From the IMG/VR virus record IMGVR_UViG_3300043772_001978, positions 1 to 20,435 of that record: 20,435 bases of DNA. One strand, written 5' to 3'. This stretch comes from a virus. The notes beneath the pieces are model-generated. The model was not told the origin of the DNA. It ran no database searches and saw only the letters and a list, made by a program, of their open reading frames with translations. The position numbers were made by a program, and so were the translations under genes. Of this stretch, positions 3,153-18,499 are shown piece after piece. The first letter of the stretch is position 1. Every line of letters begins with the position of its first letter.

Positions 3153-5624
3153 TTAATTTTTGAATCTGTTATTTAAAATAGTTGTTGAACGGCTTGGAGT
3201 TCTTACTTTTTTCATAAACCCTCGTTCATCCAATGAAATCGCAGCCACAGGCATATTCTTTAATCCTGATTCGATATTGGATAGCTTTTCAATTATCCTT
3301 CCTCCTGAATCGTTTGTTCGGCTTGTGTTGCCATAAATTAAACTTAACTGCCTCTTATCATTGATTCCTAATTGATTGTTTGGAATGATTTGCACAGGTT
3401 CATCGAATTGGGCTAAGGTTGCCACTCCAGGAGTGTAATAAACCTTTCCTGATTGAGTTATTACCTTTTCAGTTCCTTTCTCACCAACTATAGCCCTACC
3501 CTTGAATGGCTTTCCTTTTGTTCCTTCGGCAAATTCTGGAACTGGTTGGGCTAAAACTAATCCTGTTTGAAGTATAACTCCGGCTGTTATTAATCCAAGT
3601 AATACAGGATTTTTAATATTTTTAATAATTTCTGGTGCAGCAGCAAATATAATATTAGCAATTGCCTGTTGCTGATTTGCCCTAAACTCTTTTTGACGAT
3701 ATTCCCTTTCTGCAATTCTTCTTCTTTCTTCAATTTCTGTAATCTTTTGGACATTGCCATCAGCCAATCTGATTTCCTCATCAAATTGTTTTTGCTTTCT
3801 TGCCATATCTCTGGCAGCATATTGAGATTGAAGATTGAATAAGCCGTTTGTAGTATTTACTGCTAAGTCAAATGATGCTGTAAGTATTTCAGCATCCATT
3901 TCCGCAATTTCCTTTTTTAATTTTTCTTTTTCTTTTGCACTTTTTTCATCAATTTCTTTAAATTTTTTGGCTTTTTCCTCCTCTAATTCTATAAGTTCCT
4001 TATTCGTTTTATTTTGTTCCCTTGTTTGTTCCTCTTGATTTGCTTTTCTTTTATCAGCTAACTTTTTTTCTTCAGCTTGAATGTCTGCGATTTTATCTTT
4101 GATTGATTTTACTTCCTCATTGTTTGCTCTGATAACATTTTCTGCAACTAATTCTATTTCGGCTTGTCTTAATTGAGATGCTTCTTTTGCCTCTGGTATA
4201 CCTGCCTTTGCAGCATCTATGTCCAAAGCAATTTTTAAATCAGTAAACTTTTTCTTGATTAAATATGATTCTCTTTCTAATTGTAAAGGATCTTCAAATT
4301 TGATTTTTGCTTTTGTTAAAGCAATTTTTTCTTCTAAATCTAAAAGTTTTAATCTAGCTTGATATTGCTCTTTTAAGGCTTTGAGTTCGGCATCGGTTAG
4401 ACCTGCTATTTCTTCTTTTATTTTCTTTTCTTGTTCAAACCTTGTAAGGTTTACCATTAGCCCATCTCTAAACTTTTTTTCAAGTTCATATTTACGAGTT
4501 GTCTTGTCAAGTTCGGCCTGCTCCAAAGCAGACATCTGCCCATCAATTGCAAATACCTCAGCCTTTATATCAAATTCTTGCTGCAATTTTCTAAGTTTTG
4601 CATTTTGATTTACAATAGCAATTTTTAAAGCTTCTTCACTTGCTTTTTTACCAGCTTCAGCCCCTTTTTCAAATGAAGCAGCTAATGGATCATAAAGTCT
4701 TTTTAATTGATTGGCAATTCCTGCAGCTAATTCATAGGAACCTCTAAGAAATGGTTCCAATCTGGTTCCTATGGCTAAAACCAACCCATCAATAGAAGAA
4801 TTAAACCTATTTTGAGCATTTACAAGGCCATTCAGATTCTTTTCAGCACCAGGTCCAAAAGTCTTTTCTAATTCGGCTGCAAACTTTGGCAAAGCATCTT
4901 TTGAAAGAACCTGACCTTGCTCAAGCATCTTATTTAATTTTATTTCACTTACTCCTAATGCTCTGGCCATAATAGTAATTGCACCGGGAATACGTTCGCC
5001 TAATTGCTGTCTTAGTTCTTCAGATTGAACAGTACCTTTAGACATCATTTGACCGAGGGCAAGAAAAGCCCCTTGCATCTGGTCAGTAGTTAATTTTAAA
5101 ACTGTTCCTGCCTTTGTGACCGCTTCAAATTGTCTATTCGTTTCTTGTTGGCTTTGACCTGCCAAAGTCGATGCATTGAAAAAGGATTTGTAAGCTTCAG
5201 TTGTAGAGGCTAATCCTAATCCATATTTATTAATAAGGTCATTAAGAAACTGTTGATTTCTTGCAAAGTTTGCTGCACTTCCAGAACCAAATTCAATTGC
5301 TTTAGAATACCCTTGAAATTTAATAGTGGTTTCGACTAATCTATCTTTAAAAGCAAGTAATGCAGAAACCGAAAAGTACCCAGCCAATAAACCTGCACCG
5401 GATTTGACTATCCCGCTTAGGTTGTTCATTTCATTGCCAACATTCTTAACCGATTGGCTTCCCTCTTGACCAGTCTTTTTTAAACTGTCATTAAGCTTCT
5501 TCGTTTCATCAACCGCCTTCTTTTCGGCATCGGTTAATTTATCAAACTCATTTTTAGTTTTGGCGATTTGGTCGCTAGTGATAACATAATTTACAACTAT
5601 GTTATTCTGTGAGATAGTAGACAA
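3153..5624 (-). CDS. Tail tape measure protein
   Basis: This 823-residue protein sets tail length and is packed inside the tail tube. A conserved tape-measure domain lies at about residues 85-280 (for example LRQQLGERIPGAITIMARAL). A long charged coiled coil (about 330-620) follows, then a short hydrophobic stretch near 675-695 (GLITAGVILQTGLVLAQ). The C-terminal FAEGTKGKPFKGRAIVGEKGTE is a signature often seen in tape measure proteins. The start is TTG at 5624; no ATG is available upstream because a TAG lies three codons before it in the same frame, and the next in-frame ATG is some 65 codons in. That TAG ends the -1 frame of the gene before it, so the two are in one frame with seven bases between. 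A terminator follows at 3063-3089. Confidence 0.93.
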   Translation of the reverse strand: MSTISQNNIVVNYVITSDQIAKTKNEFDKLTDAEKKAVDETKKLNDSLKKTGQEGSQSVKNVGNEMNNLSGIVKSGAGLLAGYFSVSALLAFKDRLVETTIKFQGYSKAIEFGSGSAANFARNQQFLNDLINKYGLGLASTTEAYKSFFNASTLAGQSQQETNRQFEAVTKAGTVLKLTTDQMQGAFLALGQMMSKGTVQSEELRQQLGERIPGAITIMARALGVSEIKLNKMLEQGQVLSKDALPKFAAELEKTFGPGAEKNLNGLVNAQNRFNSSIDGLVLAIGTRLEPFLRGSYELAAGIANQLKRLYDPLAASFEKGAEAGKKASEEALKIAIVNQNAKLRKLQQEFDIKAEVFAIDGQMSALEQAELDKTTRKYELEKKFRDGLMVNLTRFEQEKKIKEEIAGLTDAELKALKEQYQARLKLLDLEEKIALTKAKIKFEDPLQLERESYLIKKKFTDLKIALDIDAAKAGIPEAKEASQLRQAEIELVAENVIRANNEEVKSIKDKIADIQAEEKKLADKRKANQEEQTREQNKTNKELIELEEEKAKKFKEIDEKSAKEKEKLKKEIAEMDAEILTASFDLAVNTTNGLFNLQSQYAARDMARKQKQFDEEIRLADGNVQKITEIEERRRIAEREYRQKEFRANQQQAIANIIFAAAPEIIKNIKNPVLLGLITAGVILQTGLVLAQPVPEFAEGTKGKPFKGRAIVGEKGTEKVITQSGKVYYTPGVATLAQFDEPVQIIPNNQLGINDKRQLSLIYGNTSRTNDSGGRIIEKLSNIESGLKNMPVAAISLDERGFMKKVRTPSRSTTILNNRFKN

Positions 5625-5630
5625 TTTGCA

Positions 5631-5918
5631 CTATTTTTGTTTTTTGATTGCCTCCAGCCAAATAGAATAATCTAAATAAAACTGGTAATAGGAACGTCTG
5701 ACCAATGACTCATAGCTAACATCCATTCCTTTTGCAAATCTAATTCTTTCTTTATATCCGGACTTAAATTTTCCGAGTTCATCAAAGTAGAATGAAGTTC
5801 CATGTTCTTTATGTTCATGACCGCTATTCCTTTCAAACAACTCTGGAAATTCTCTTGTAACCCTTCCGAGGGTTGCAGATATTGATTTTGAGGCAGATTC
5901 AAAAAAAAAGTAGAGATG
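5631..5918 (-). CDS. -1 frame extension of the tail assembly chaperone (GT-like)
   Basis: This frame opens immediately after a TGA at 5921-5919 and runs to TAG at 5633-5631. It has no ATG near its start; the first is at MDVSYESL, leaving only 31 residues. The most economical reading is entry by -1 frameshift at the T9 run (5901-5909), giving a 268-residue product: 178 residues of the zero frame plus 90 of this frame (FESASKSISATLG... to ...WLEAIKKQK). The frame is well formed, rich in aromatic and charged residues, and ends seven bases before the tape measure start, where the T part of lambda GT and its analogues lies. The alternative is an assembly or true indel in the homopolymer: one extra T would make 5631-6436 a single gene. 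Confidence 0.65.
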   Translation of the reverse strand, partial: HLYFFFESASKSISATLGRVTREFPELFERNSGHEHKEHGTSFYFDELGKFKSGYKERIRFAKGMDVSYESLVRRSYYQFYLDYSIWLEAIKKQK

Positions 5919-6436
5919 TCATTGTTTGAAGACCAAAACTTTACTTTTTCTAAATTATATTTATGGTCATAACCAAAAGGATCTTCATACTCATCAAAAT
6001 ACTTAACTGTGGCCAGTTTGATTTGAGTGTCTAATCTGATTGATAAGTTTTGGGCCTGCTTCATTGATTCATTAAGCACCCCTATTTCAAGCATCTTCTT
6101 TTCAACCTTCTTCTTAGGGTCAGTCAGGAGTGATTCAATAGCTTCCCAATGCTGTGTGAGCATGGTTGGATTCATTTGATAGTCCAACTCCCGATAAATC
6201 ATTTTAGCAGCCTCCATGCGTTCCCATGAAATCATGATGTCCTGATTCCAACAGAAATAATTCTTGTTTCCAGATTTAAAGGCAAATTCAATCTTAGGCC
6301 AATGGATTTTGTCGGCATTGCCTAAATATTGAGGCTTATCATTCTGATTCGAGGAATCGGTTGAAACAGGCATTGATGAAGTATATCCAGCCGAAGGCAA
6401 AACAGACTTCTTTGATTTCTTGAGGAATTGGAACAT
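5672..6436 (-). CDS. Tail assembly chaperone-like protein (zero frame, G-like)
   Basis: This 254-residue soluble protein has no family I recognise by sequence. It is largely helical (for example DPKKKVEKKMLEIGVLNESMKQ) after a Ser/Asn-rich N-terminus. Position directly before the tape measure gene and the overlapping -1 frame downstream of a slippery run are the marks of lambda G/GT-type chaperones, which bind the tape measure protein before tail tube assembly. That assignment is by context. The ATG at 6436 gives an unusual 98-base overlap with the membrane-protein gene before it. A later ATG at 6373 (MPVSTDSS) would cut this to 35 bases, but MFQFLKKSKK looks like a natural start. The last 76 codons share DNA with the -1 frame. 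Confidence 0.65.
   Translation of the reverse strand: MFQFLKKSKKSVLPSAGYTSSMPVSTDSSNQNDKPQYLGNADKIHWPKIEFAFKSGNKNYFCWNQDIMISWERMEAAKMIYRELDYQMNPTMLTQHWEAIESLLTDPKKKVEKKMLEIGVLNESMKQAQNLSIRLDTQIKLATVKYFDEYEDPFGYDHKYNLEKVKFWSSNNDISTFFLNLPQNQYLQPSEGLQENFQSCLKGIAVMNIKNMELHSTLMNSENLSPDIKKELDLQKEWMLAMSHWSDVPITSFI
5859..5909 (-). promoter_or_regulatory. Probable -1 ribosomal frameshift site with downstream hairpin
   Basis: In the zero frame the codons are ACT TTT TTT TTG, so T-TTT-TTT (5909-5903) is a perfect X-XXY-YYZ slippery heptamer inside a run of nine T. The -1 frame has a stop only ten bases upstream, so slippage can hardly occur earlier and still work. A hairpin AACCCT-CGGA-AGGGTT (5874-5859) lies 28 bases after the heptamer, further than the usual 5-9 bases, so its role is doubtful. 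Confidence 0.6.
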
Positions 6437-6623
6437 AATAGAAAATTAAAAATAACCAGGGAGCAAAACAATAAGGGCAGTTGCCTAAAGGGTCAGAAAG
6501 GTACTCAGGTAGTTTATTGATAAGATTGGAATACCAATGCAGGTATGGAACAAAGATAATCGCATAGCAAAAGAATTGAGCAAATAGGGCAGTTGAAGTG
6601 GCTTCAAAGATTAGGTTAATCAT
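6339..6623 (-). CDS. Small polytopic membrane protein with CPYC motif
   Basis: The 94 residues form about three hydrophobic segments (near 8-30, 53-66 and 72-88), with GNCPYCFAPWL at residues 47-57 just before the second. A Cys-Pro-X-Cys-containing membrane protein of this kind is common in small phage genes, but the function is unknown to me. Its ATG overlaps the stop of the 19-codon gene before it as ATGA (6623-6620), so it is probably translationally coupled. Its 3' end overlaps the chaperone-like gene by 98 bases. Confidence 0.65.
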   Translation of the reverse strand: MINLIFEATSTALFAQFFCYAIIFVPYLHWYSNLINKLPEYLSDPLGNCPYCFAPWLFLIFYYVPIPQEIKEVCFAFGWIYFINACFNRFLESE

Positions 6624-8928: not shown

Positions 8929-10005
8929 TTACGAGGTTTTTAACTCAAAAGAAGCTGTAATTCTATTTTTTGAAGTGCTGCCTTTTAATTGAGTTGATGT
9001 CCTTCCTGTTTCTTTAGTTCTTCCAAATCTTGTAGCATTCCATTCACTATTTTTTTTTAAGGCATTTATTAAACTTGGAGCAGATGTTACAATGTTAAAT
9101 CTGTTCTTTTCTCTTTTGTAAATTTTGCCAACTTGATTTAAAAACTTAATTCCAAATCCTGCGCCCTGATAATCTGGCAATATTACAAGTCTATGAACTT
9201 TTTTTATATTTTTAGCAGTTGGATGAGGAAAATGTAAAACAGATAAAAACCCAGCCAATTCATCATTTATAAAAGCTAGAAACACATTTGCAGCATTGTT
9301 ATGCATATGACTTAAATAGTGATGTTTAGCAAACATTTTCCAGATTGACTTATCTGCTGTTTGGAATATTTCAAATTTGATTTCTGGTCTATTTTTTTTT
9401 TGCCCTTCAAAAGATTGAAAGGTCATTGTATCTGTATTAAAAACCCAATCTGGCAAAAGCCAGTCCTGAACATCAAAATGACAACTGACCGCAATGAATT
9501 GTTTGTCTGTTTTTCTAATTGCTTTCTGCATGGCAAAAGAACCTATCTGAGCAACATTTCGATCAACTACACTTGTAAACTCGTCAAAGACAAAAAACTT
9601 TTGAGAATCTAAGATTGCTCTTGCCAAATCAACTCTCATTTTTTGCCCATTGCTTAATACAGAATAAGGCTTTAACCAACTTGGAGGACTTGAAAAACCT
9701 ACTGAATTAAAGGCATTTGTAATTTGCTCAATACTGCATTCTTTTGGCATATCATCCAATATTGATTCAGCAGAATATTCAAAATTAGTTATGTAGGAAT
9801 CTTCAAATAATTGTTTTGCGATTGTAGTTTTTCCAGTTCCGCTTTTTCCTACAATTAATCCAATCTGCCATTTTTCAGGCAATGCAATATCTCCAGAAAA
9901 TCTTTCTTCTACGTTTTCAGACAACAAGTCAAATCTTCCAATAATGGAAGAAACCCGAAATGTTTTTTTCGGATTGCATTTTTTTATAATGTCAAAAGTC
10001 GGCAT
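8929..10005 (-). CDS. ABC-type ATPase fused to a GNAT acetyltransferase domain
   Basis: The 358-residue protein has two domains. Residues 1-200 form an ABC ATPase: Walker A GKSGTGKTT (53-61), signature LSNGQ (117-121), Walker B FFVFDE (137-142) and H-loop His176 in VSCHFD. There is no membrane segment, so it is not a transporter. Residues about 208-358 form a GNAT fold: KHHYLSH (228-233), strands AFINDELAGFLSVLHFP, and the acetyl-CoA-binding motif LPDYQGAGFG (276-285). The Mom protein of phage Mu, which modifies adenine in DNA, is a GNAT protein, and this C-terminal domain could be of that type; that is inference. The gene overlaps the ParB-type gene by 22 bases and precedes terS by ten. A role in DNA modification or DNA-linked signalling before packaging is suggested by context only. 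Confidence 0.8.
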   Translation of the reverse strand: MPTFDIIKKCNPKKTFRVSSIIGRFDLLSENVEERFSGDIALPEKWQIGLIVGKSGTGKTTIAKQLFEDSYITNFEYSAESILDDMPKECSIEQITNAFNSVGFSSPPSWLKPYSVLSNGQKMRVDLARAILDSQKFFVFDEFTSVVDRNVAQIGSFAMQKAIRKTDKQFIAVSCHFDVQDWLLPDWVFNTDTMTFQSFEGQKKNRPEIKFEIFQTADKSIWKMFAKHHYLSHMHNNAANVFLAFINDELAGFLSVLHFPHPTAKNIKKVHRLVILPDYQGAGFGIKFLNQVGKIYKREKNRFNIVTSAPSLINALKKNSEWNATRFGRTKETGRTSTQLKGSTSKNRITASFELKTS

Positions 10006-13309: not shown

Positions 13310-15097
13310 TTATCTAACAAATACAAAATAAGGAGTCCAAAATACTTGACCTTGTATTGTAATTGATGCCCGATAACACCAAGATCCTGCAGAGGGAGGT
13401 ATTGGTTGCGGATTCAATTCTCTATCAATTAATCCTGCTTGAGATTCACTTGCTGTTGGTGTATAGGTTCCTCTGCCTCCGCAGGTAGGTAAAACAGTAT
13501 TTGCAAGATTACAGTTTTGTCCATATCGGCAAAGATTTATTGCGTGTGATGAAGTTGAGCCAACAGGAATATTGAATTTTAATCTCCACTTTCCATTTGC
13601 TACATAACATACTTGATTCGAAACTGGAACTGTTGCTGTTGAGCAAGCTTGACTTAATACAGGGGTTCCGACACATCCGGCCGGAGAAGAAAGTGCAGTT
13701 CTTGTCTGTACTCCATTTATGCAACTTGACCAAGTAGAATAAGTGTAAACACAAGGAACTGGTCCAGAAGCACCAGAACGAACTGTAAACGAATCAGACC
13801 TGTGTATCTGTCCAATGCCTTCCAGTTGCGCCCTGTATCGGTTGCTGCCTGATTTGATGATGGTATCGGCCCTGTTGATGGCAGCAGAGCCAACATTGAA
13901 AGCCCTTATCTGAACGCCATTCTCAAATATACGACAAATTGAACCCAATGAATTTGCAAGAACTTCTGTTTTTAAGATAAATCGATTGTCCTTATTCTGC
14001 AAAGAATCTACAAATAAACTTGGCGCACCAAGATAAGTACCTGAAATTGTTGTTGCTTGATTCCAAGTATTTTGGATTTTAATCCGAACCTTATTGCCAT
14101 GATCGGGTACTACGCCACCACAATTCTGCCCATATCCCATTACAAAAGTCTGGGAACCGCCTCTTGCTGGTGAAAAAGGATTGCAATTTTCAGAACGGCA
14201 TGAATCAATTGGTGCAAACTTACCCTCATGATTTTTCCATTCACCGCAGCGATGCGTATGTCTTGAACCATCATTATGCCCTTCCTCATGAAGAACAACA
14301 ACAGAATGCCATAATTGACTGAAGTTAGTTCCATTCATTAACCGCCTCCAATTAGGAGAGATGGCACTTGAGTAGATGCAGCTTACAGCCACTCTACCAG
14401 CTTTATTGTTTAATGATCCAACAAAGGCAATACCACCACCATTAAAGGTCGTATTAATTATGTGAACCCTGTCGCCATTGTAGTTTCCGTTATTGAACCA
14501 ACTCTCAACTCCAGATTGAGATAGGACTAAAGAAGTCCTTAAAGAAGCATTTACATTTGGACTTGTCCATAAAGAATCAATCTTGTTTTTTGCATTCTTG
14601 TAAAAAAAAGTATTGAATGTCGGATCGATATTGATGTCCAATATTTCCCTATTCATCTCCACTTTATTCTGATGCAAAGCAGTTAAATGATTCATCATGG
14701 CCGTTTCACCTCCCTGCTTTTGAATTGTGCCAAAGTCTACGACATACAATGTTTTTATTGTCTTTCGCCCTGGGGCAACATTCTGATTTGATAAAGGCTC
14801 TTCAATTGTTGGTACAAACTCCACTTCATCCATTGTTGGCATAACAGGTAATTCTAATGGAGCAAGATTTGCATCCGGATTTGAACTTTGTGAACCTTCA
14901 TACCAAGTTTTAATCCCCGTAATCGAATCCTGTGTCCATCCAAACCATTTGTTGCCAGATAGCTTTGATAAATTACCCCATTTGCCTGTCCATGTCTTTG
15001 GAGAGGTTTTTTGAAGGTTAAATCTTGCAGGTAGATTCCTTTGTGCCTGTGCTATTGCTGACAATAGAAAGAGGCATGACATCAATAAAGTTTTCAT
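13310..15097 (-). CDS. Secreted metzincin metalloprotease with thrombospondin-1-like repeat
   Basis: This is a 595-residue exported zinc protease. A signal peptide covers residues 1-19 (MKTLLMSCLFLLSAIAQAQ). The pro-region or N-domain extends to about 110. The catalytic domain has the full metzincin site HEEGHNDGSRH (270-280; His270, His274 and His280 ligands, Glu271 catalytic) and a Met-turn at Met320 in FVMGYG. A linker domain follows. Residues about 449-485 (YSTWSSCINGVQTRT... GCVG... QAC) resemble a TSP1 repeat. A further Cys-containing domain ends the protein at WTPYFVFVR, with no obvious sorting signal. The layout recalls ADAMTS proteases in miniature. It closes the accessory operon with the glycosyltransferase. 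Target unknown; host-surface or secreted substrates are possible. Confidence 0.85.
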   Translation of the reverse strand: MKTLLMSCLFLLSAIAQAQRNLPARFNLQKTSPKTWTGKWGNLSKLSGNKWFGWTQDSITGIKTWYEGSQSSNPDANLAPLELPVMPTMDEVEFVPTIEEPLSNQNVAPGRKTIKTLYVVDFGTIQKQGGETAMMNHLTALHQNKVEMNREILDINIDPTFNTFFYKNAKNKIDSLWTSPNVNASLRTSLVLSQSGVESWFNNGNYNGDRVHIINTTFNGGGIAFVGSLNNKAGRVAVSCIYSSAISPNWRRLMNGTNFSQLWHSVVVLHEEGHNDGSRHTHRCGEWKNHEGKFAPIDSCRSENCNPFSPARGGSQTFVMGYGQNCGGVVPDHGNKVRIKIQNTWNQATTISGTYLGAPSLFVDSLQNKDNRFILKTEVLANSLGSICRIFENGVQIRAFNVGSAAINRADTIIKSGSNRYRAQLEGIGQIHRSDSFTVRSGASGPVPCVYTYSTWSSCINGVQTRTALSSPAGCVGTPVLSQACSTATVPVSNQVCYVANGKWRLKFNIPVGSTSSHAINLCRYGQNCNLANTVLPTCGGRGTYTPTASESQAGLIDRELNPQPIPPSAGSWCYRASITIQGQVFWTPYFVFVR

Positions 15098-16772: not shown

Positions 16773-17237
16773 ATGTCAAATTATACTTCCATTAAAGGGT
16801 TTTTAGAGGTGCAAATTAAAAATCTGACCAATGCAATGAACCCTGATAAAGTTCTACGTCAGGCAGTTGTAACCCTTGTGCCGGAAATGAAAAACAGGAT
16901 TCAGCAGGATGGGAAAAAATCTGATGGAGGGAAAATTACAAGTCCATCAACTGATAGATTTGGGGCTTATTCCAAAGGTTATGGCAAGAAAAGAAGCAAG
17001 AATGGAAGGCAAGTAAATCATATTGATTTGACCTTTAAAAACGATATGATGAGGGACTTGAAACCAGGGCCGACAGGACCGATGTCTTACGGTGTCGGTT
17101 TCCTATCCAATGAACAAAGGAAAATTGCAGGTTATAATGAGGAAAATTTTGGAGTTATCTTTGACCCGACCGATCAAGAGTTAAAACAGTCCTTAGTGAC
17201 AATTAACAAGGCAATTCAAAAAGAACTTTCAAGATGA
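16773..17237 (+). CDS. gp10-like head-tail connector / virion morphogenesis protein
   Basis: The 154-residue protein has an N-terminal helix (GFLEVQIKNLTNAMNPDKVLRQAVV), a basic Gly-rich loop (YSKGYGKKRSKNG), strand LTFKNDMMRDLK, and YGVGFLSNEQRKIAGYNEENFGVIFDPTDQEL. This order matches HK97 gp10-type and virion-morphogenesis proteins, which sit at the head-tail joint. Assignment is by pattern, not by an exact motif. It is followed by the fibre gene with an ATGA overlap. Confidence 0.6.
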   Translation: MSNYTSIKGFLEVQIKNLTNAMNPDKVLRQAVVTLVPEMKNRIQQDGKKSDGGKITSPSTDRFGAYSKGYGKKRSKNGRQVNHIDLTFKNDMMRDLKPGPTGPMSYGVGFLSNEQRKIAGYNEENFGVIFDPTDQELKQSLVTINKAIQKELSR

Positions 17238-17340
17238 AAAATACCCTTCTTTCAAAAATCTCATCTGAAATTGAAAGGCTTTTAAATATTAAAGTTCTGA
17301 ACTATGGCGAAAGTCACAAAGTAATTACAGAAAATCAAGG
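17234..17340 (+). repeat. Diverged direct repeat of 20329-20435
   Basis: These 107 bases align without gaps with 20329-20435 at the window end. The last 17 bases are identical, while the first 30 are the most divergent. The copies are about 3.1 kb apart in the same orientation and could recombine to swap or delete the genes between them. Confidence 0.8.
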
Positions 17341-18499
17341 TTTCAATTATCGGTCTATTGATTCAGAAAAGCCTTGCTCAGTTGATGACAATTATGATTT
17401 AGTGTTATTCTTTGTTCGAGAAAATTCAACTCCAAATACTGAACAGGGCCGAGGGTTAAAACAAAAGCTTTCGAGAAATGTAAATTACAAGTTGATAGCA
17501 AATTCAAAAAGTGAATCGAATGATTACAATTTGAATTTCATTCTTAATAATATCAAAGAGGTTCAATTAATTGGAAACACAAATAATGATGGAAGGGCAA
17601 TTGCACAGACATACTTTGGAATCGACAATTACGATTTTACGACTTACTTTTTATCCATTGACTTTTCAATGATTGAATTAATTGATTGTTCAAACTCTTG
17701 CCCTCCAGAAACAGGATGCAATTGCCCACCTGGACCGCAAGGACCACAGGGTCCAGAAGGTCCAATAGGGCCAGAAGGGCCGCAGGGTCCAAAAGGTGAT
17801 CAAGGGGATAAAGGTGACAAGGGTGATCAGGGTGATAAAGGTGACAAAGGTGATCAAGGGGATAAAGGTGACAAGGGTGATCAAGGCGACAAAGGTGATA
17901 AAGGTGACAAGGGAGATCAAGGCGATCAAGGTCCACAAGGGCCAGAAGGACCGCAAGGACCAGAAGGACCACAGGGACCAGCAGGCGAAAACGGTGAATC
18001 TGCTACTTTATTCTTATACAATGCAAGGACAACATCAACAAGCGGAAACCCTACACCTGGACGATTACTTTGGAATAATGCGACACAGATAAATTCCACT
18101 CAGATAAACATCTCACATCTTACAGATGATTCGATTGATATTGATGTTTTTTTAGCTTTGATAATAGTTGGAACTACCATAATCATTCAAGATAAAACTC
18201 AAAGTGCAAATTTTCAGACTTGGGAAATTAATGCCCTTCCAACTTTAATTACTGGAACAAATAACTATTGGATTTTACCTGTAACCTTAGTTTCTTCTGG
18301 AGGGACTGGAACAACGAACTTTGCAAACAACCATAATTTAATTGTTGCTTTATTGCTTCAAGGACCGGAAGGTCCGCAAGGGCCAATAGGTCCACAAGGC
18401 CCAGCAGGGCCAACAGGTCCACAGGGGCCGGCAGGTGCAAATGGTGTAAGCGGAGAAAACACAACTAACTTTTTATTTAACTTTTTGAACTTCAATTAA
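17234..18499 (+). CDS. Collagen-like fibre protein with N-terminal virion-anchor module
   Basis: The 421-residue protein has three parts. Residues 1-155 are a globular module without known motif (NYGESHKVITENQ, NYDLVLFFVREN). After Cys-rich CPPETGCNCPP come about 30 uninterrupted Gly-X-Y triplets (residues about 164-253; many GDK/GDQ), a beta-rich domain, and a second run of about 11 triplets near the C-terminus, ending with a hydrophobic NFLFNFLNFN. Collagen-type triplets form trimeric rods in phage fibres. The N-module is duplicated at 20329, so it is probably the attachment part. Position after a gp10-like gene suggests that the module may be a tail-terminator or neck component (inference). 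Confidence 0.8.
   Translation: MKNTLLSKISSEIERLLNIKVLNYGESHKVITENQGFNYRSIDSEKPCSVDDNYDLVLFFVRENSTPNTEQGRGLKQKLSRNVNYKLIANSKSESNDYNLNFILNNIKEVQLIGNTNNDGRAIAQTYFGIDNYDFTTYFLSIDFSMIELIDCSNSCPPETGCNCPPGPQGPQGPEGPIGPEGPQGPKGDQGDKGDKGDQGDKGDKGDQGDKGDKGDQGDKGDKGDKGDQGDQGPQGPEGPQGPEGPQGPAGENGESATLFLYNARTTSTSGNPTPGRLLWNNATQINSTQINISHLTDDSIDIDVFLALIIVGTTIIIQDKTQSANFQTWEINALPTLITGTNNYWILPVTLVSSGGTGTTNFANNHNLIVALLLQGPEGPQGPIGPQGPAGPTGPQGPAGANGVSGENTTNFLFNFLNFN
17795..17902 (+). repeat. 27-bp tandem repeats encoding GDQGDKGDK
   Basis: Four consecutive 27-base units (17795, 17822, 17849, 17876) are nearly identical; the fourth differs mainly at synonymous positions. They encode the most regular part of the Gly-X-Y rod. 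Close DNA identity makes length change by slippage or recombination likely. Confidence 0.85.

Follow-up and report, generated by a model that had tools for sequence, protein, structure and literature searches.

The gene directly upstream from the tape measure gene on the minus strand of the 20,435-base IMG/VR record studied here (hereafter referred to as the window) is very probably recoded, with a -1 shift giving access to two overprinted C-termini, both under selection, in an arrangement resembling that of G and GT. Most expression would proceed in the zero frame, yielding an N-terminal part followed by a tail of about 78 residues, and a fraction of events would shift to the -1 frame at a run of nine Ts (T9), linking the same N-terminal part to a different tail, of about 92 residues, ending at the tape measure start. 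Selection would keep both tails, and the two products would correspond, by analogy with lambda gpG and gpGT, to two forms of a tail assembly chaperone in a fixed ratio; the unshifted form would also bear a conserved C-terminal part of its own, rather than the few leftover residues seen in lambda. We infer that both proteins are made, together with their ratio, and, by analogy and from the position before the tape measure gene, that they would act as tail chaperones. The relevant features of the window are as follows.

5901–5909, minus strand: slip site, a run of exactly nine Ts including the in-phase heptamer T_TTT_TTT (5909–5903); invariant in 136 unique sequences and in 80 of 80 loci found without use of the run.
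5672–6436, minus strand: zero-frame ORF of 254 aa, consisting of the shared N-terminal part and the zero-frame C-terminal tail; conserved in 23 diverse relatives.
5672–5902, minus strand: zero-frame C-terminal tail, a conserved domain of 76 codons plus stop; omega (zero frame) about 0.29 in the overlap.
5631–5903, minus strand: -1 frame C-terminal tail, a conserved domain whose 90 codons run from the shift to the TAG immediately ahead of the tape measure start; omega (-1 frame) about 0.40.
5675–5900, minus strand: dual-coding stretch of about 226 bases, both frames, from the comparison of substitutions between relatives.
5899–5901, minus strand: +1-frame TGA formed by the last T of the run and the adjoining GA, which is present in 136 of 136 sequences; coding alone may explain this.
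3153–5624, minus strand: tape measure protein (TMP_3, PF20155, E 1.6e-28), with a TTG start at 5624.
6339–6623, minus strand: ORF of 94 aa in another frame, overlapping the 5' end of the slip-site gene and also present in relatives.

Read in the frame of the 254-aa ORF, the minus strand around the slip is ...ATC TCT ACT TTT TTT TTG AAT..., and the perfect in-phase T-TTT-TTT heptamer reported there by the first-pass annotation was borne out. A TGA at 5921–5919, nine bases before the run, closes the -1 frame, which is thereafter open to TAG at 5633–5631, as had been claimed; six bases, rather than seven, separate this TAG from the TTG (5624) of the tape measure ORF. The 76 further zero-frame codons were confirmed, as were the sizes of 254 aa for the unshifted product and 268 aa for the shifted product, and the initial estimate of about 230 dual-coding bases is close to the extent given above, over which both frames are selected. 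A slip deleting one base would terminate at the +1 TGA.

The start of the slip-site gene is uncertain (ATG at 6436, or the in-frame ATG at 6373 instead), because its first 98 bases or so overlap the 94-aa ORF. This ORF encodes a hydrophobic protein with a CPYC motif, and substitutions in the overlap are also few and spread across codon positions; the slip-site gene may therefore be dual-coding at both ends. At the opposite end, the tape measure start adjoins the end of the -1 tail, not that of the zero-frame tail (TAG then TTG, 5624–5640, minus strand), and in one relative (L042) the stop of the -1 tail and the tape measure start overlap as ATGA. Translation of the tape measure protein may thus be coupled to the shifted product.

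A first scan of IMG/VR with the 254-aa protein retrieved 18 relatives, falling into two clades, and all those reaching the site had nine Ts and both frames open. Profile searches with the -1 tail and with the zero-frame protein extended the relatives to 41–50% identity, again with exactly T9 in all loci reaching the site, and the DNA pattern T9-GARTCTGCC matched at least 119 stretches, those examined being the slip-site gene. The relatives in IMG/VR numbered at least 238, several of them on contigs of 34–37 kb; 136 unique sequences were analysed, forming 17 clusters at 80% nucleotide identity, and both frames were conserved across these clusters. An unconditioned set was built from a profile of only the part upstream from the slip site, with the best 80 of 238 relatives. 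The run consisted of exactly nine Ts in all 80, and the zero-frame tail had 78 codons in 78 of them, the exceptions being contig edges and contig L258; across the relatives, 69 to 84 zero-frame codons follow the slip. L258 was the only one of the 80 in which the two downstream frames did not both remain open across the overlap, aside from a few records that end at a contig edge. Such regularity lies well outside what chance would give. Ten Ts, a missing run or the retention of only one frame, which the first-pass annotation had named as findings incompatible with a shift, were not encountered in the relatives, apart from this contig.

In L258 (positions 940–1260), the sole exception among the 80, one base is inserted some 25 bases past T9, such that the -1 tail is read in continuity with the zero frame and the longer product would need no slip. 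This counts against the proposed recoding; the sequence may be a chimeric assembly or a genuine variant.

Neither tail had a match in PHROGs, in Pfam or, by tblastn, among the INPHARED phages, and these searches cover the comparison with phage proteins initially recommended. No prophages were found in one genome per species of bacteria and archaea (GTDB genomes). Relatives of the tape measure protein in Polaribacter and Leeuwenhoekiella phages suggest a Bacteroidota host. Sequence conservation indicates that the dual-frame T9 gene is a feature of this whole large group of uncultured phages.

The bases of the slip site are more uniform than the surrounding codons. The codon before the two Phe codons was GGT, ACT, GAT, AGT, TCT or GCT, ending in T in 136 of 136 sequences; upstream, a third-base T is used in 21% of Gly (GGT) and 29% of Thr (ACT) codons. 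Both Phe codons were TTT in all 136, against a TTT usage of 45% upstream. With the 17 clusters treated as independent, the probability of such invariance arising by chance is about 1e-10 for the T-ending codon and about 1e-12 for TTT TTT. These bases are silent in the zero frame and lie outside the -1 tail, for which they have no coding duty, and they are therefore preserved for slippage itself.

Selection was assessed on 60 disjoint pairs from the 136 unique sequences, with substitutions classed by their effect in both frames and divided by the number of opportunities. Between close relatives, upstream substitutions lay at the third codon position, whereas those in the overlap were fewer and evenly spread. 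In the upstream control, doubly non-silent changes stood in a ratio of 1.7 to those silent in the -1 frame alone, implying that the -1 frame is not constrained there, and the zero-frame ratio was 0.064. In the overlap, the ratios were 0.40 (0.33–0.50) for the -1 frame (NN/NS) and 0.29 (0.23–0.36) for the zero frame (NN/SN). Changes creating a -1 stop decreased from 85.6 upstream to 1.7 in the overlap per 1000 opportunities, a figure inflated by the pre-filtering of the sequences for both frames open, which biases the estimate of stop avoidance; contig edges aside, the same filter applied to the unconditioned set would drop only L258. The substitution pattern points to purifying selection on both frames in the overlap. 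This comparison of synonymous change in the two frames among relatives had been proposed at the outset, and with T9 invariant, both frames conserved in the 17 clusters and omega below 1 in both, the original claim of two C-termini reached by a -1 shift is upheld.

The slip itself may be due to the RNA polymerase adding a U at T9, to which we give an even chance, to a ribosomal -1 slip on U_UUU_UUU, which we place somewhat below even, or to both. Slippage by the polymerase is no less likely than frameshifting by the ribosome, with a slight lean towards the former, because T9 has the length of an efficient polymerase slip site and no downstream RNA structure was found. With polymerase slippage, transcripts with ten Us would be conventionally translated into the -1 product, and those with eight Us would stop at the +1 TGA. 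Nine A or T residues is the length of efficient in vivo slippage by bacterial RNA polymerase (PMC5009743) and the run length avoided in many of 108 genomes surveyed (PMC1088944), and a conserved A/T run of at least nine at the frame transition, the mark of transcriptional slippage, is present here; genes of that kind would also give mRNAs that vary in the length of the run. The invariance of T9 and the +1 TGA after the run in all 136 sequences are in line with this mechanism, but the two overlapping codings and the heptamer fix the same bases. In other genes of these loci, A/T runs of at least eight are scarce, at about half the frequency observed in codon shuffles, which hints at avoidance of polymerase or replication slippage; the depletion of runs may, however, stem from replication slippage, and the homopolymer statistics lean towards slippage avoidance without separating transcription from replication. 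A downstream stimulatory structure was considered and rejected: in plain secondary-structure predictions for 24 representatives, a stable stem-loop of the kind that stimulates ribosomal -1 shifts was not found, and the mean folding z was about 0, like the background. Shine-Dalgarno-like elements usually lie 10–14 bases from frameshift sites, and none was recognised by inspection at this distance from the slip site.

Ribosomal frameshifting alone would involve the slippage of the P- and A-site Phe-tRNAs on UUU UUU into the -1 frame, as in other G/GT-type genes, and the last two Ts of T9 would then be kept solely as coding for Phe (-1 frame) and Leu (zero frame). The heptamer is in phase, and a review treats the G/GT shifts that it covers as translational events (PMC5009743). 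In phage P2, no hairpin follows the TTTTTTG slip site (PMC3091744), and the absence of a structure at T9 was therefore not counted against the ribosome. Nevertheless, the run is always nine, and a T-to-C change at its position 6, which would leave the heptamer usable (Phe to Leu in the -1 tail), was never seen, although protein constraint could account for this. In-phase TTTTTTT is also not strongly avoided elsewhere in the genes of these phages, with 30 occurrences against 39 expected. The full proposition that this group makes two tail-chaperone forms by polymerase slippage at T9, with about 230 bases encoding two co-selected C-terminal domains, is tentative and, in our estimation, falls a little short of even.

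The assignment of the gene to the G/GT class was examined separately. Genes of this class lie downstream from the major tail protein gene, and their two products, made in a fixed ratio and missing from the virion, bind the tape measure and tail tube proteins. The slip-site gene lies directly upstream from the tape measure gene, its in-phase -1 slippery site is conserved among relatives, and its -1 frame is conserved as coding and stays open almost as far as the tape measure start, as in G/GT genes. Conversely, the zero frame does not end a few codons after the slip (76 codons in the window, 69–84 in relatives), and no homology to known chaperone families was detected in PHROGs, Pfam or INPHARED. 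The gene probably works like G/GT, as a variant with a long zero-frame tail, and is not filed as a proven member, because the short zero-frame end and the sequence homology are lacking. The G/GT arrangement initially invoked thus holds for position and -1 slip, but not for homology or the short zero-frame end, and the term "tail chaperone" is positional and by analogy.

It is unlikely, at about one chance in a few, that the recoding is real and the protein has a role other than that of tail assembly chaperone. Such a role would fit the lack of homology to known chaperones, which extends to the pre-tape-measure gene of Leeuwenhoekiella phage Arctus_1, for which no alignment or remote homology to the slip-site protein was found. 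In a 35-kb relative (G001, the contig of L016), ten proteins were scanned, including likely head and tail candidates, with few PHROGs matches and no confident Pfam match, and neither the major capsid protein nor the major tail protein was recognised in this ten-protein PHROGs/Pfam scan. AlphaFold models were poor (pLDDT 62 for the -1 tail, which was helical, and 45 for the zero-frame protein); fold searches with them, to which little meaning can be attached, matched no known chaperone structure, and only a helical tendency is predicted for the tails. Against another role, the pre-tape-measure position and the -1 slip together constitute the hallmark G/GT arrangement (PMC5009743, PMC3091744).

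A separate overlapping gene in the -1 frame, with its own internal start and no fusion, is very improbable. The frame is open and conserved, but ATG is absent from the initial 40 codons of the -1 tail in all 136 sequences, and no GTG or TTG is conserved, consistent with the earlier statement that this frame has no usable start of its own; this candidate was rejected for want of a conserved start codon. The upstream -1 stop sits 0–81 bases before T9 in the 136 sequences, touching the T run in two of them, and the slip-site bases are invariant. A sequencing or assembly error concealing a run of ten and a single 268-aa frame was rejected as extremely improbable, for although homopolymers are generally error-prone, exactly nine Ts were found in 80 of 80 unconditioned loci, whose contigs come from numerous metagenomes, and selection also acts on the zero-frame tail.

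The recoded gene may be compared with several known systems. The gene for lambda gpG/gpGT lies directly before the tape measure gene and that for HK97 gp13/gp14 shortly before it, and both share with the slip-site gene a -1 shift at an in-phase slippery site, a common N-terminus and an extra -1 C-terminus; no sequence similarity was found between their chaperones and the slip-site protein. In G/GT genes, the shift occurs near the 3' end of g (PMC5009743). Lambda slips at GGGAAAG, with five zero-frame codons left, and in HK97 the zero frame also ends close to the annotated position of the shift. By contrast, 76 (69–84) conserved codons are left in the slip-site gene, such that both products would have a substantial distinct tail. 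The E and E+E' proteins of P2 provide a closer parallel in site, with a T-rich TTTTTTG and no downstream hairpin, a feature shared by P2 relatives (PMC3091744), in a gene before the tape measure gene, but only six zero-frame codons follow the heptamer, and there are six Ts plus G rather than nine Ts.

Thermus thermophilus dnaX, Shigella mxiE and some IS transposases likewise combine a conserved homopolymer with two downstream readings, nine As or Ts being prone to slippage (PMC1088944, PMC5009743). However, the alternative frame of dnaX stops at once and slippage in mxiE extends a product, whereas here, with slippage putative, two long conserved tails occupy one stretch. Potyvirus P3N-PIPO (PMC4552492) has a long overprinted frame, a shared N-terminus and polymerase slippage at a conserved site, but it is an unrelated protein of an RNA plant virus with an RNA-dependent polymerase, and the logic alone is alike. 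Among open-licence papers, we found no report of so long a dual-coding stretch in a phage chaperone gene.

Other genes of the window were also of interest. A 595-aa protein (13310–15097, minus strand) with an apparent signal peptide matched M12 reprolysin-like metallopeptidases (PF13688, E 2.6e-8) and contains an HExxHxxGxxH-like motif, making it unusual phage cargo. A single ORF (8929–10005, minus strand) matching an ABC-type ATPase and then a GNAT acetyltransferase adjoins a ParB_N-like protein and the terminase small subunit region. A 421-aa protein (17234–18499, plus strand) has a long collagen-like Gly-X-Y repeat (PF01391, E 9.1e-20).

Many phages are known to have a programmed shift upstream from the tape measure gene. 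In lambda and P2, however, little of the unshifted frame is left beyond the slip, and only one product thus gains a domain. What is new here is that the unshifted and shifted products would each carry a long selected tail from the same DNA, across a broad uncultured group. As a natural example of extended overprinting through recoding in tailed phages, this gene would be unusually clean, and its diversity is sufficient for the co-evolution of two proteins on one sequence to be followed. The comparison of relative rates in both frames could reveal missed cases in other phages, and the T9 gene makes it possible to ask directly whether the polymerase can take over from the ribosome as the machine whose slippage sets the proportions of tail assembly proteins.
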